Shown here: one piece after another, positions 1,719 through 54,389 of the stretch
Layout of the letters: every line of letters starts with the position of its first letter
Position numbering within the stretch: the first letter of the stretch is position 1
Assembly (NCBI GenBank): GCA_035533075.1
Contig: DATLUO010000021.1
Span: 1 to 62,978 of the forward strand
Direction of reading: 5' to 3'
Source: Pirellulales bacterium
Lineage (GTDB): Bacteria > Planctomycetota > Planctomycetia > Pirellulales > JAICIG01
DNA: 62,978 bases
The notes under the pieces: model-generated
The model's input: only the letters and a program-made list of their open reading frames with translations
The model's database searches: none
Told to the model about the DNA's origin: nothing
Translations under genes and position numbers: made by a program

Positions 1719-2319
1719 CCAGCGTTTACCTGTTCGCTACCGATCCCGAAAAGCTGCGGGGAGACTTGGCACGCGACCCTGCGCTGGTGGCCGAGATTGC
1801 TGCCCGCGCCAGTCGCCACGGCGTGGACGTCGACGAGATTCAGGATCTCTGTGGCCGCGTGAGCGAAGTTCGATCGCTTTCCTGGCCGGCAGGCGCCGAC
1901 ATGCTCTCCGTCAACGCGTTTATGTGGATGACGCCGGCGCGCGGGCGGACGCCAAGACAGAGCTTGGCTCTACCGCGATGCACATCGCCGCGGGCGGCGG
2001 CAATGTGGAGGGCCTGGAAGTGCTTCATCGGCTCGGTCTGCCGATCGACGCCAGAGACAACGGTGGTTCGACGCCGTTATTGGACGCCATCGAGTGCCAC
2101 CAAGCGGAAGCCGCCGAATGGTTGCTTAAGCGCGGCGCGGACGTCAATGCCCGCGATAAGGACGGATGGACAAGCCTGCACAACGCGTATGCGACGAGCC
2201 TCGATTACGAGGAAGACGGCATTCCTTCCCCTTTAATCGCGGTCCTCGAAAAGTACGGCGCCGACCCGACGCTCAAAGACGACGAAGGGCGCACGCCAAG
2301 AGATTTTCCCATTCGCTAG
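1694..2319 (+). pseudogene. ankyrin-repeat protein, frameshifted
   Basis: The first part reads in one frame (VYLFATDPEKLRGDLARDPA, then a helical stretch to about 1915) and looks like an N-terminal domain; its ATG at 1694 lies inside the REP palindrome. From about 1900 the coding signal moves to another frame and gives about 131 residues with three ankyrin-like units: GSTAMHIAAGGGNVEGLEVL, GGSTPLLDAIECHQAEAAEW and DGWTSLHNAYATSLDYEEDG, ending with DDEGRTPRDFP. Ankyrin repeats mediate protein binding. Either one gene has been frameshifted near 1880-1920, or the ankyrin part is a separate gene with a GTG start at 1924. The lack of a natural start for the first part favours a remnant. Confidence 0.55.
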
Positions 2320-2687
2320 CGTCTGCTCCCCTCGCAGGCAGAAAGAGCCCCGACGGACCGTGCAAATCCTCTCGCCGAAACAATCGTCCTTTCAAGCTGG
2401 GTCACGGCCCAGGGCGCCAGGGCACAGAATCCTGGCCCAAGGTCTTTGACGATTTGATTCACGCGGCAAACCCGCTCCAGCCGAAGCCGTCTCCGGCGAA
2501 GCGAGAGCTAACGGCGGTTTCGAGGCACGCGCGTGGAAGCCGCCGGCACCGCGCGCCGCCAGCCTTTCCACCAAGACGGTGGTTGCGGAGGCGATTTCCG
2601 CAAGCGCGCGGCAAATCGTGCAAAGGCGGGCGTTGCTTGCGGTTGGCGTGAGGCGTCCCCAGAGATTGAAGTGTATAATGTCCGGGC
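2320..2687. other. intergenic, no supported gene
   Basis: About 370 bases without a convincing reading frame on either strand. The only notable signal is TATAAT at 2674-2679, just 8 bases before the ATG of the next gene. No good -35 box lies 16-18 bases upstream, so it is at most a weak promoter; if used, the transcript would be nearly leaderless. Confidence 0.4.
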
Positions 2688-3704
2688 ATGGCGAACCCAA
2701 TTCTTGTGAGCACCGGCAGTTCGAAGTTGCGACTGGGCCTGATCGGCTGCGGCGTGGTGGGACGCCGGCATGCGGGACAACTGCGCGGCGACAGCCGTGT
2801 GGAACTGGTCGTGTGTTGCGATCCGGCGATTCAGGCTGCGCGCGGCCTGCGCGACGAATTCGCTCCGCAAGCCGCCGTCGAGACCGACGCCTTTCGCGCC
2901 CTGGCCGAGCACCGCTTGCAGGCCGTCGTCATCGGATCTCCCACGCAAATGCACTACGAGCATTGCTGCCGCGCCTTCGACCTGGGTCTGGCCGTGCTCT
3001 GCGAGAAGCCCCTGGCAGCCCGGCGGGAAGAGATCGTCGATCTCATCGACCGCAGCCGCGGCAAGGGCCATTTTCTGATGGTCGGCTACCAGAGGCGGTA
3101 TCGCGCGCCTTACGCCACGGCCCGGCGTGAGCTGACCGAGCGGGCCGAGTGGTACGGTCCGCTGAAGCAGGTCCACGTCTATGTGTGCGAGCGTTGGCAG
3201 CAGACGATCCGGGGCACGTGGCGTGACGACCCGCAGGTGGGCGCCGGCTATTTCGGCGATGCCGGCAGCCACCAGATTGATATCGTCAACTTCATCACCG
3301 GCCGGCGGCCGGTGAAGGTTTTCGCCGCGAGCGAGCAACGTGGCAGCCAGGTGGAAATTACGACCCAGGTGATGGGCCGGCTCGACGGCGGCGCGGGACT
3401 GCTCGCCCATTTCGTCGGCGACGCCAACCATTGGCGCGAAGACATCTACTTCCACTGCCGCGACGGCGACCTGCTGCTGCGGAGCGAGAAGCTCTATCGG
3501 GCAAAATCGAACCATACCGAACAGATCTTCGATTTGCTGCCAGACAGTTCGCCCGACCGGGCCTTTGCCGATTGGCTGCTCGACGGCAAGCCGATGGTCT
3601 CGCCGCCCGAAATCGCGTTGCCCATGCACGATTGGACCGCCGCGGTGTTGAAATCGGCCAAAGAGGGAAGCTGGGTCGAAGTGGAACCGGCCGTTCCCGC
3701 TTGA
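2688..3704 (+). CDS. Gfo/Idh/MocA family NAD(P)-dependent oxidoreductase
   Basis: A 338-residue protein. The N-terminal Rossmann fold starts at about residue 15 with RLGLIGCGVVGRRHAG (GxGxxG), and the family signature CEKPLAARREE follows near residue 105. The C-terminal half is the usual alpha/beta domain, with GDAGSHQIDIVNFITGRRP at about 190-210 containing the conserved H-x-x-D region. Members oxidise or isomerise sugars, inositols and sugar-nucleotide derivatives; planctomycete genomes carry dozens and the substrate cannot be assigned here. The length is typical. There is no close operon partner upstream; the membrane protein that follows begins 53 bases later on the same strand and could be co-transcribed. 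Confidence 0.88.
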   Translation: MANPILVSTGSSKLRLGLIGCGVVGRRHAGQLRGDSRVELVVCCDPAIQAARGLRDEFAPQAAVETDAFRALAEHRLQAVVIGSPTQMHYEHCCRAFDLGLAVLCEKPLAARREEIVDLIDRSRGKGHFLMVGYQRRYRAPYATARRELTERAEWYGPLKQVHVYVCERWQQTIRGTWRDDPQVGAGYFGDAGSHQIDIVNFITGRRPVKVFAASEQRGSQVEITTQVMGRLDGGAGLLAHFVGDANHWREDIYFHCRDGDLLLRSEKLYRAKSNHTEQIFDLLPDSSPDRAFADWLLDGKPMVSPPEIALPMHDWTAAVLKSAKEGSWVEVEPAVPA

Positions 3705-50729: not shown

Positions 50730-52040
50730 ATGACCCATCACTTTTCGCGTCGTATCTTCCTGCGAGGCGTCGGCGTCTCGATGGCCCTGCCCTGGATGGA
50801 ATCGCTTTCGGTATGGGGCGACGAGCCGGCCGCGCCGGTCGCCAACAGCGGCGGCAGCGATGCGCCCGTGCGGTTGGCGGTGCTGTTCTCCGGCAACGGT
50901 TTTCACAGCCGTGAGTGGTGGGCCAAAGGCGCGGGCCGCGACATGGAGTTGGGCCAGGTGCTGGCGCCGCTGGCTGACTTCCGCGAGAAGATGCTCTTTA
51001 TCCGCGGCCTTTACAACGCGGAGGCCCTCAAGGGAAATATCCACAGTTCGCAGACCGGCAATCTGCTGTCGGGCGCGCCGCTGGCCTCCGGCGGCGAGAT
51101 CCGGTCGGGCACCAGCCTCGACCAGGTGATCGCCCAGCGCGCCGGGCACTCGACCAAAGTACCCAGCCTCGTGCTCGGCTGCGAGAAGTCGAACCCCTCG
51201 GTCCACAAGAACTACTCGATGCTCTACAGCTCGCACATTTCGTGGAGCTCTCCCACCACGCCCACGCCGCTGGAGCTTTATCCGGCGCTGGCCTTCGACC
51301 GGCTGTTCAAAGACGAAGTGCAAAAAGGCGACGAGAGCGTGCTCGACGCGGTGCTGGCCGACGCCCGTGACTTCCGCCGCCGCGTGAGCGCGGCCGACCA
51401 GCGGAAGCTGGACGAATATCTCGATTCGGTGCGGGAGGTGGAGCAGCGCATCGAGCAGGCCGGAAAGCAGGGCGAATTGCAAGGCTGGCGGCCGACGTTG
51501 GCCGGGCCGAACATGCCGCGGCCCGCCGACGGCATTCCGCAGAACATCGCCGACCACATGCGGTTGATGTGCGACATTCTGGTGCTCGGATTCCAGACCG
51601 ACACCACTCGCGTGACGACGCTCAAGCTGAACAACGACCACAGCTCGCTGCGTTTTCCGCACCTGGGCGTCGACTACATGATCCACCACTTGCTCTCGCA
51701 TTCCGACACGGCCGACTGGCTGAAGGTGAACCAGTTCTTCCTGGAACAGGTCGCCTACATCGCCCGCAAGCTGGACGGCATCCAGGAGGGCGAGCGGACC
51801 GCGCTCGACAACTCGATGATTCTCTACTGCTCCAGCATGCTGACGGGCAACCACGAGGCGAACCAGTTGCCCGTGGTGCTGCTGGGCCGCGGCGGCGGCA
51901 AGATCGATGCTGGCCGAGTGCTCGACTATCTTGGCAAGCCGAACCGCAAGATGTGCAGCCTGTTCCTCTCGCTGCTCGACAAGGCGAGCGTGCATCTTGA
52001 CCAGTTCGGCGACTCGAACGAGCGGCTGGCGGAGGTGTAA
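50730..52040 (+). CDS. DUF1552 family protein, Tat-like signal
   Basis: A 436-residue protein of the DUF1552 family, which accompanies DUF1592-type cytochrome proteins throughout planctomycetes. The N-terminal HHFSRRIFLRGVGVSMALPW carries a twin-arginine export signal. The body has FSGNGFHSREWWAKGAGRDM, IRGLYNAEALKGNIHSSQTG, SMLYSSHISWSSPTTPTPLE, LKLNNDHSSLRFPHLGVDYM and NHEANQLPVVLLGRGGGKID. Family members resemble sulfatase/alkaline-phosphatase-fold proteins; activity is unknown. No Shine-Dalgarno is present because a heptamer array abuts the ATG. Its last 13 codons recur in near-identical form at 52955, after the toxin-antitoxin module. Confidence 0.9.
   Translation: MTHHFSRRIFLRGVGVSMALPWMESLSVWGDEPAAPVANSGGSDAPVRLAVLFSGNGFHSREWWAKGAGRDMELGQVLAPLADFREKMLFIRGLYNAEALKGNIHSSQTGNLLSGAPLASGGEIRSGTSLDQVIAQRAGHSTKVPSLVLGCEKSNPSVHKNYSMLYSSHISWSSPTTPTPLELYPALAFDRLFKDEVQKGDESVLDAVLADARDFRRRVSAADQRKLDEYLDSVREVEQRIEQAGKQGELQGWRPTLAGPNMPRPADGIPQNIADHMRLMCDILVLGFQTDTTRVTTLKLNNDHSSLRFPHLGVDYMIHHLLSHSDTADWLKVNQFFLEQVAYIARKLDGIQEGERTALDNSMILYCSSMLTGNHEANQLPVVLLGRGGGKIDAGRVLDYLGKPNRKMCSLFLSLLDKASVHLDQFGDSNERLAEV
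51996..52034 (+). repeat. direct repeat, copy A (3' end of DUF1552 gene)
   Basis: 39 bases beginning CTTGACCAGTTCGGCGACTC, encoding LDQFGDSNERLAE. Copy B at 52955-52993 matches 36 of 39 bases. Confidence 0.9.
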
Positions 52041-52602: not shown

Positions 52603-52959
52603 ATGGCGGCGTTTCTGGCGGATGAAAACGTGCCACAGGAAGTGGTCGATGCAGCGCGACAAGCGGGCCACGATTTGAAGTGGATCAAGGAGCTGCAGCC
52701 CGGTGTTGACGACGATACGGTGCTGCGAACCTCGATGGCGGAAAACCGCGTGTTGTTGACGTTCGATAAGGACTTTGGGGAGATGGCATTTCGCCAGGGA
52801 AAGTCAGCAACGTGCGGCGTGATCCTTTTTCGTCCGCGGGTCCATTTTCCCGACTATGTTGCGCGGTTCGTGATCGCGGTGTTAGGGCAGTCCGTGAACT
52901 GGGAAGGCCACTTCGCCGTCGCCCAGGAAGGTCGGTTGCGCGTTGTTCCGCTACCTTGA
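52603..52959 (+). CDS. DUF5615 PIN-like toxin
   Basis: A 118-residue PIN-like protein. Acidic residues typical of the nuclease centre are in AAFLADENVPQEVVDAARQA (D, E), VDDDTVLRTSMAENRVLLTF and TFDKDFGEMAF (D-x-D-F). The family are probable RNases paired with DUF433 antitoxins. It starts 3 bases after the antitoxin. Its stop codon (CCTTGA) is the first part of the direct repeat copied from a DUF1552 gene end. Confidence 0.9.
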   Translation: MAAFLADENVPQEVVDAARQAGHDLKWIKELQPGVDDDTVLRTSMAENRVLLTFDKDFGEMAFRQGKSATCGVILFRPRVHFPDYVARFVIAVLGQSVNWEGHFAVAQEGRLRVVPLP

Positions 52960-52993
52960 CCAGTTCGGCGACTCCAACGAACGGCTGGCGGAA
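52955..52993 (+). repeat. direct repeat, copy B (displaced DUF1552 gene end)
   Basis: 39 bases matching 51996-52034 except three third-codon-position changes, followed by GCATGA where copy A has GTGTAA. In the right frame it still reads LDQFGDSNERLAEA and a stop. Confidence 0.9.
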
Positions 52994-53138
52994 GCATGAG
53001 CATCGGGTCGCGCAGCCTGCTTGCCGGCGATCAACCCTGCACGACCGGAAGAGTGCGCATAGCCGGCAATCGCTGTGGTAGACTAGATTCAGTATTTCGC
53101 TCGCAACCGTTGTTTCTGCCGCGTTACTTGTGCCACTT

Positions 53139-54389
53139 ATGCTTCTTTGCACTCACTTGCGTCGACTCAGGCGGTTCTTGGTGACGGCGATCTGCGTGCT
53201 GGCGTCGGCAGGTATCGCCCTCGGCCAACCGGCCACGCGGCCGGGCAACAAGCGACCGCGCTGGTACGACCCACGGCGCTACCTTGATCGCGGCCTCGAA
53301 GCGGCCGACGACGTGCGGCGAATCGAGATCGTCGAGATGCTCGTTGCGCTGGCGCACGGTCAGCCGCCCGACGCCGGCCAGGGGTGGTTCCACGACGGGC
53401 AAAGCCGCTTCGGCTGGCAATGGCTCGCCGACCGCTACGACGAGGATCATGACGGCCAGATCGCGCCCGAAGGGTTTCCGCCGGATGCCGCAGACTTGCT
53501 GGCGAGGCTCGATCGCGATCAAAACGGCACAATCGAAGAAGACGATTTCGATTGGTCGAGTGAATCGCCCTACGTGCAGCAGATGTCGCAGACGAGGCGG
53601 TTGTTCGGGCCAATCGACCGCGACCGCAACGGTCAAATCACCAAGGACGAGTGGCGAGAGTTCTTCGAACGCGCGGCTCTCGACGGCGCTTCGATCACGC
53701 CGGCCGAGCTTCAGGCGGCGCTGTTTCCGCCCCAGCCGGCAAACTCAGACGACGGTCCGTCGCCATTCGACTTTCTGCGAGGTTTCGTGACGGGCGAATT
53801 AGGCTCCGTCTCGCAAGGGCCGGCCATCGGCGGTCGCGCCCCCGATTTCGAGTTGGCCGACCACAGGCATCAGCGGCGGGTGCGGCTGTCGGACCTTTAT
53901 GAGAAGAAGCCGGTGGTGTTGATCTTCGGCAGCTTCACGTGAGGCCCCTTCCGGTCCCAGTTTGGGATCCTCGAAGACCTGCACGGCCGCTATGGCGACC
54001 AGGCCGAGTTTGTGGCCGTTTACGTTCGCGAGGCCCATCCGGTGGGCGGGGCCTGGCCCGGCAAGTTCAAAAACGAAGCGGGGGCTGCCATCCATCAACC
54101 GACGCAGCTTGCCGAGCGTGTCGACGTGGCCGCCGAGTGCTGCAAGGTGTTGGAAATCTCCATGCCGCTGTTGGTCGACGACGTCGACGACCGCGTGGGC
54201 CGGGCCTACAGCGGCATGCCCGACCGGCTCTATGTGATCGCTCGCGGCGGCCGCATCGCTTACAAGAGCGGCCGGGGGCCGTTCGGCTTCAAGCCGGGCG
54301 AGATGGAGCAGTCGCTGGTGATATTGTTGCTCGACGAAACAAGCGGCCGCGCGGAGGCCGACGTTCCGCCGGAGGCCGGAGGCAGGTAG
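53139..54389 (+). CDS. probable selenoprotein: EF-hand plus iodothyronine-deiodinase-like domain
   Basis: A 416-residue protein if UGA at 53940-53942 is read as selenocysteine (residue 268). A signal peptide (RRFLVTAICVLASAGIALGQ) is followed by three EF-hand loops (about 101-112 DEDHDGQIAPEG, 125-136 DRDQNGTIEEDD, 160-171 DRDRNGQITKDE). The thioredoxin-fold domain then has VVLIFGSFT-U-GPFRSQF, where deiodinases have GSxTU-P-x-F, and the frame continues unbroken with EFVAVYVREAHPVGG (deiodinase: YIEEAHxSDGW), MPDRLYVIARGGRIAYKSGR and GPFGFKPGEMEQSL, all matching the family in order. A bacterial SECIS-like hairpin follows the UGA. It should be exported and act as a calcium-dependent thiol/selenol redox or dehalogenating enzyme (inference). 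GTG at 53130 is an alternative start. Confidence 0.82.
53940..53969 (+). promoter_or_regulatory. UGA selenocysteine codon and SECIS-like hairpin
   Basis: The in-frame TGA is at 53940-53942. A stem GGTCCCA (53953-53959) / TGGGATC (53963-53969) of 7 bp with one G-U closes a loop GTT whose first base is G, 17 bases after the UGA. Bacterial SECIS elements have a short stem, a G among the first loop bases and a loop 16-37 bases from the UGA, so this fits. Confidence 0.65.

Follow-up and report, generated by a model that had tools for sequence, protein, structure and literature searches.

Deiodinase-like selenoproteins of bacteria were reported in 2005, as members of Pfam00837 that carry selenocysteine (Sec) or cysteine depending on the protein and that are accompanied by a bacterial SECIS element (PMC1088965). 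A selenoprotein fusing a deiodinase-like domain to EF-hands was listed in 2021 from marine metagenomes, in the accessible part of that source (PMC9402790), and the accessible part of a 2026 review covers deiodinase-like proteins, several AhpD-like CxxU families and double selenoproteins of other types (PMC13188914). In the literature searched, we found no paper giving a function to a bacterial deiodinase-like member. Here we analyse a gene of this kind in a window of 62,978 nucleotides from a Pirellulales bacterium (GCA_035533075.1, contig DATLUO010000021.1). The original prediction, made from the letters of the window, presented it as a new selenoprotein; the 2005 and 2021 reports, together with a full-length match to the NCBIfam family NF038285, remove the word 'new'.

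The coordinates of the gene and its GSFT-U-GPF and VYVREAHP motifs had been given correctly (Table 1). The TGA stands between IFGSFT and GPFRSQFG, at the site of selenocysteine in deiodinases, and the same frame continues to VYVREAHP and PDRLYVIARGGRIAYKSGRGP; the stretch beyond the TGA holds 148 sense codons, one fewer than the 149 that had been claimed. With the TGA translated as Cys or Sec, the product matched T4_deiodinase (PF00837) at 5.5e-23 (81.9 bits against a gathering cut-off of 27; residues 229–392), and a scan of the assembly found this gene's own match (76.8 bits) as the only one. NF038285 matched at 415.8 bits, above its curated cut-off of 250 (residues 61–400 against model positions 7–347), and single-sequence searches matched mouse Dio3 (2.8e-16) and Dio2 (1.9e-12). 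The N terminus, RRLRR followed by the hydrophobic FLVTAICVLASAGIAL, resembles a signal peptide when judged by eye, consistent with the predicted secretion signal, and the product is probably exported. Three EF-hand loops are present as predicted, although the first is degenerate, and three Pfam models score above their curated cut-offs (EF-hand_1, 36.5 bits against 25.4; EF-hand_6, 32 against 25; EF-hand_5, 29.7 against 25.9). The loops probably bind calcium, for stability or control; that the enzyme may respond to calcium, as originally suggested, is an inference from these motifs.

Table 1. Features of the selenoprotein gene (window positions)
Feature	Position	Strand	Evidence
Complete selenoprotein gene, 416 aa	53139..54389 (stop TAG included)	+	Frame open from ATG at 53139 to TAG at 54387-54389 except for a single TGA; NCBIfam NF038285 match
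Probable signal peptide, approximate boundary	53139..53230	+	Basic then hydrophobic N terminus, by eye; similar N termini in relatives
EF-hand loop 1, DEDHDGQIAPEG, residues 101-112; last position Gly, degenerate	53439..53474	+	
EF-hand loop 2, DRDQNGTIEEDD, residues 125-136	53511..53546	+	Pfam EF-hand matches
EF-hand loop 3, DRDRNGQITKDE, residues 160-171	53616..53651	+	Pfam EF-hand matches
Deiodinase-family (peroxiredoxin-like) domain	53823..54314	+	PF00837; best model matches Dio2/Dio3
TGA codon read as selenocysteine, residue 268	53940..53942	+	TGA, TGC or TGT in homologues; genomic Sec machinery
Putative SECIS hairpin, GGUCCCA-GUU-UGGGAUC	53953..53969	+	Stem kept in Sec-type, lost in Cys-type relatives
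Cys334 codon, candidate resolving Cys	54138..54140	+	Conservation; role inferred

The original prediction implied that the genome encodes selA, selB, selC and selD, and all four are found in the 8.5-Mb planctomycete assembly: tRNA-Sec (62.2 bits; anticodon tca by ARAGORN), selA (557.8 bits), selB (371 bits) and selD (284.1 bits), each above its curated cut-off. The prediction of Cys or Sec at the aligned position was likewise borne out in a homologue set of 25 matching loci from named genomes. In the closest loci (L054–L059; best-segment identity 49–54%), seven genes have TGA at the aligned codon, more than chance would give, and the EF-hand genes of L060–L074 have TGC or TGT there. Compared with six Sec-type relatives, the gene showed pN of 0.34–0.44 upstream of the TGA and 0.20–0.29 downstream, with pS of 0.58–0.76 (0.58–0.68 downstream). 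The region after the TGA is thus constrained as much as the region before it, or more, and by these codon comparisons purifying selection acts on both sides.

Sec-type EF-hand genes share a 7-bp stem closed by a triloop whose first base is G, at +14 to +30 when the U of UGA is +1. Standard pairs occupy 88% of the pair cells in the Sec-type relatives, compared with 53% under a synonymous-codon null that never reached the observed value in 1,000 trials, and the value falls when the partner columns are slid. Only 40% of the cells are paired in Cys-type relatives; their pairing is also slightly above the synonymous null (8/1,000), so the contrast to trust is that between 88% and 40%. The hairpin of the window alone is no more stable than shuffled sequences (z −0.48; P = 0.11 in a second test), and the case for a SECIS therefore rests on the comparison across relatives. 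A search of the window for SECIS elements in Rfam gave chance-level matches only. We regard the hairpin as a putative bacterial SECIS-like element.

The Sec machinery, the aligned TGA or Cys codons, the purifying selection and a hairpin kept only in Sec-type genes together indicate that the TGA is a Sec codon, and on these genomic grounds the gene is almost certainly a real selenoprotein gene. Its reading as a pseudogene or artefact, with the TGA put down to nonsense mutation or faulty sequencing, could draw on a diverged loop in the protein (described below) and on the fact that the TGA is known from assembled sequence alone. We consider this extremely improbable, since independent genomes at about 50% identity share both the TGA and the hairpin, the downstream half is at least as constrained as the upstream half and no part of the Sec machinery is missing. 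Near-cognate readthrough was rejected along with nonsense mutation and sequencing error because other homologues have Cys at the aligned codon and the TGA recurs in independent genomes; the selection on the downstream half agrees with the earlier argument against a random nonsense mutation.

Of 392 planctomycete genomes sampled, 118 contained a deiodinase domain, and most of the matches had one TGA. Thyroid hormone is not expected in such organisms. selA was present in 89 of the 96 genomes with a TGA-bearing match and in 157 of the 296 others, a tally that ignores kinship. Because the standard code reads TGA as a stop, automatic annotation is likely to truncate such genes.

A tree of 31 full-length EF-hand proteins places the window protein with L054 and L057 (support 98/89). 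It needs two changes between Sec and Cys, one for a large Cys clade and one for a Cys duplicate beside the L056 Sec gene; the direction of change depends on where the tree is rooted. In L056, the Cys copy (L056:2563-3699) lies in tandem with the Sec copy (L056:3917-5071). In this Cys copy the EF-hand region is partly lost and the hairpin pairing is gone, as would be expected if Sec had recently given way to Cys and the SECIS had decayed. Gemmata-type genomes contain another, distant deiodinase-like group that has an in-frame TGA (FGCLTU-PPFLWNVSG) and lacks the conserved E-A-H. It is represented in L070 (frame from 2474) and L076 (frame from 1600); in L076 the frame lies upstream of a Cys-type EF-hand gene.

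Around the gene in the window, a functional link to the upstream DUF1592/DUF1552 genes was considered and is unsupported, these families not being among the scanned neighbours in relatives. DUF1559 neighbours do recur in relatives; DUF1559 is very abundant in Planctomycetota. A 38-base stretch at the 3′ end of DUF1552 (gene at 50730-52040), located at 52000-52037, has a 95% identical copy at 52958-52995, after the DUF5615 gene at 52603-52959. The arrangement resembles what an insertion of the segment in between, accompanied by duplication of the DUF1552 gene end, would leave.

An AlphaFold model of the protein (mean pLDDT 83, pTM 0.85) best matched Dio2 (Z 18.4, rmsd 2.8, 173 aligned residues) and Dio3 (Z 17.6, rmsd 3.6, 178 aligned), followed by the Bcp and AhpE peroxiredoxins (Z about 16). 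These scores are close, so the fold by itself cannot separate a deiodinase from a peroxidase. Ser265, Thr267, Tyr295, Glu298 and His300 are kept from the Dio active site, in which a hydrogen-bond network of Ser, Thr, Tyr, Glu and His has been described for Dio2 (PMC11592359). Phe266 occupies the position of the proximal Cys (two residues before Sec by the deiodinase criterion) on which the reduction of Dio1 by glutathione relies (PMC9141512). Cys334, possibly the resolving Cys, is shared by the Sec-type EF-hand proteins and recurs in 21 of the 25 deiodinase-only proteins. The loop after His300 (54018-54090) departs from the conserved HPTDGW...SN, with Asp303 replaced by Gly and one residue inserted; apart from this loop, the domain is otherwise kept.

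ResA/DsbE-type enzymes are also among the fold matches, and EF-hands suggest regulation. This probably exported selenoprotein could conceivably be a redox sensor or thiol-disulfide oxidoreductase that targets exported proteins, with the binding of calcium as a signal. We think this distinctly unlikely: the active site reads T-U-G-P-F, with neither a C-x-x-C nor a U-x-x-C motif, and peroxiredoxins fit the model better than ResA does.

Genes with similarity to AhpD/CMD adjoin the family gene in relatives, and in seven loci (L045, L055, L056, L063, L065, L073 and L101) the AhpD-like module is in frame with the deiodinase domain. Five of these are Cys-type fusions (L045, L063 of Zavarzinella formosa, L065, L073 and L101). 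The other two encode double selenoproteins (L055:3860-6475; L056, frame from 3803 through the module), in which EF-hands and a deiodinase domain (FTU-GPF) are followed by an AhpD-like module that has an in-frame TGA of its own, the second of the frame (CFYU-MGH). L057 (about 2083-3381) and L099 (G377:C95:1500-5200) instead have separate Sec-type AhpD-like genes beside Sec-type EF-hand deiodinases. The module reads C-x-Y-C-M-G-H in Cys types and C-F-Y-U-M-G-H, with an in-frame TGA, in L055, L056, L057 and L099; AhpD-type family models match it below their cut-offs. Read from the sequences, a potential stem capped by a GGUC loop follows this second TGA in all four Sec-type copies; its outer pair is C-G, U-A or G-C, and minimum-energy folds do not all show the stem.

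All four loci with a Sec-type AhpD-like module hold a Sec-type deiodinase (two in L055; L056 and L057 each carry a Cys copy as well). In each of the nine distinct loci whose modules are exclusively Cys-type, the deiodinases are exclusively Cys-type too. These counts cover related, non-independent loci and do not amount to a formal test. One genome, G377, has one locus of each type. In a whole-genome search of nine family-bearing genomes, with positive controls, the strongest AhpD-like matches adjoined or were in frame with a family gene (twice in G377, and in G087, G373 and G216), with a few weaker ones elsewhere; the search found no such match in the window's genome (G000), G353, G307, G257 or G320. 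The examined flanks of L054, L058 and L059 also lacked an AhpD-like partner.

Since AhpD serves to restore peroxidases, AhpC for example, after their oxidation (PMC10460364), its association with the family points towards a peroxidase function and lends support to the original guess of peroxide or thiol chemistry. In many relatives the AhpD-like module, which is observed beside or within the family gene, is probably the reductant partner. Alternatively, Sec268 could take halogen from haloaromatic or halophenolic compounds, as deiodinases do from iodothyronines. Sequence and fold are nearer to deiodinases than to other peroxiredoxins, and members throughout the family retain Glu, His and the deiodinase-loop Trp. 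The recurring partner, however, is of a kind that fits peroxidases, no dehalogenation gene or halide pathway was found beside the gene or among the scanned neighbours, and the window protein has Gly in place of Asp303, a conserved residue of the loop. Reductive dehalogenation is thus unlikely in our view, and peroxide-type chemistry is the function we prefer.

On balance, we consider it probable that the gene encodes an exported NF038285 selenoprotein in which Sec268 carries out peroxide-type chemistry and is re-reduced by thiols. The UGA would be read as Sec by SelB and tRNA-Sec, guided by the hairpin just downstream. Outside the cytoplasm, Sec268 would most likely reduce a peroxide-type or other oxidised substrate; Cys334 or an external thiol would resolve the oxidised Sec, and a thiol partner, in many relatives probably the adjacent or fused AhpD-like module, would then re-reduce it. 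The EF-hands would bind calcium for stability or control. Against this peroxide-type reading stand the lack of an AhpD-like partner in the genome searched here, the lack of a known activity for the family, the replacement of the Dio1 reduction Cys by Phe266, the diverged loop after His300 and a hairpin that is not significant in the window alone. More tentatively, it is possible that planctomycetes have an exported selenoperoxidase system in which an EF-hand deiodinase-fold enzyme works with a dedicated AhpD-like reductant, fused in some cases, the two switching jointly between Sec and Cys. The AhpD link suggests, for bacterial deiodinase-like proteins, a specific function that is open to testing, and it bears on the roles of deiodinase-fold enzymes before thyroid hormones.

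Compared with known systems, the window protein shares with the vertebrate iodothyronine deiodinases Dio1–3 the fold, the Sec position and the G-S-x-T-U-x-P-F and E-A-H motifs; unlike them, it lacks the proximal Cys, has an EF-hand domain, probably acts on other substrates and has no membrane-anchor role shown. AhpC/AhpE with AhpD resemble the family in that a peroxiredoxin-like domain is tied, in relatives, to a C-x-Y-C/U-M-G-H module; they differ in that the partner is missing from the window's genome search and that AhpD models score the module below cut-off. The bacterial proteins of PMC1088965 are alike in Pfam00837 membership, Sec or Cys usage and SECIS, but no EF-hand domain is mentioned there. 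By its description, the fusion of PMC9402790 has the same two domains in one selenoprotein, and the accessible part of that source only lists it. NF038285 (deiodinase_rel, 'deiodinase family protein') matches the full length, over EF-hands and deiodinase domain; its name carries no function, and many sampled members are Cys forms whereas the window protein is a Sec form. The window protein therefore belongs to a known kind, as a full-length NF038285 member with a type of EF-hand fusion that is already published. The deiodinase/AhpD pairing is not mentioned in the accessible part of the 2026 review (PMC13188914), and we found no published description of it in the literature searched. This pairing, with the double-Sec fusions, is the part that is apparently undescribed and most worth following.
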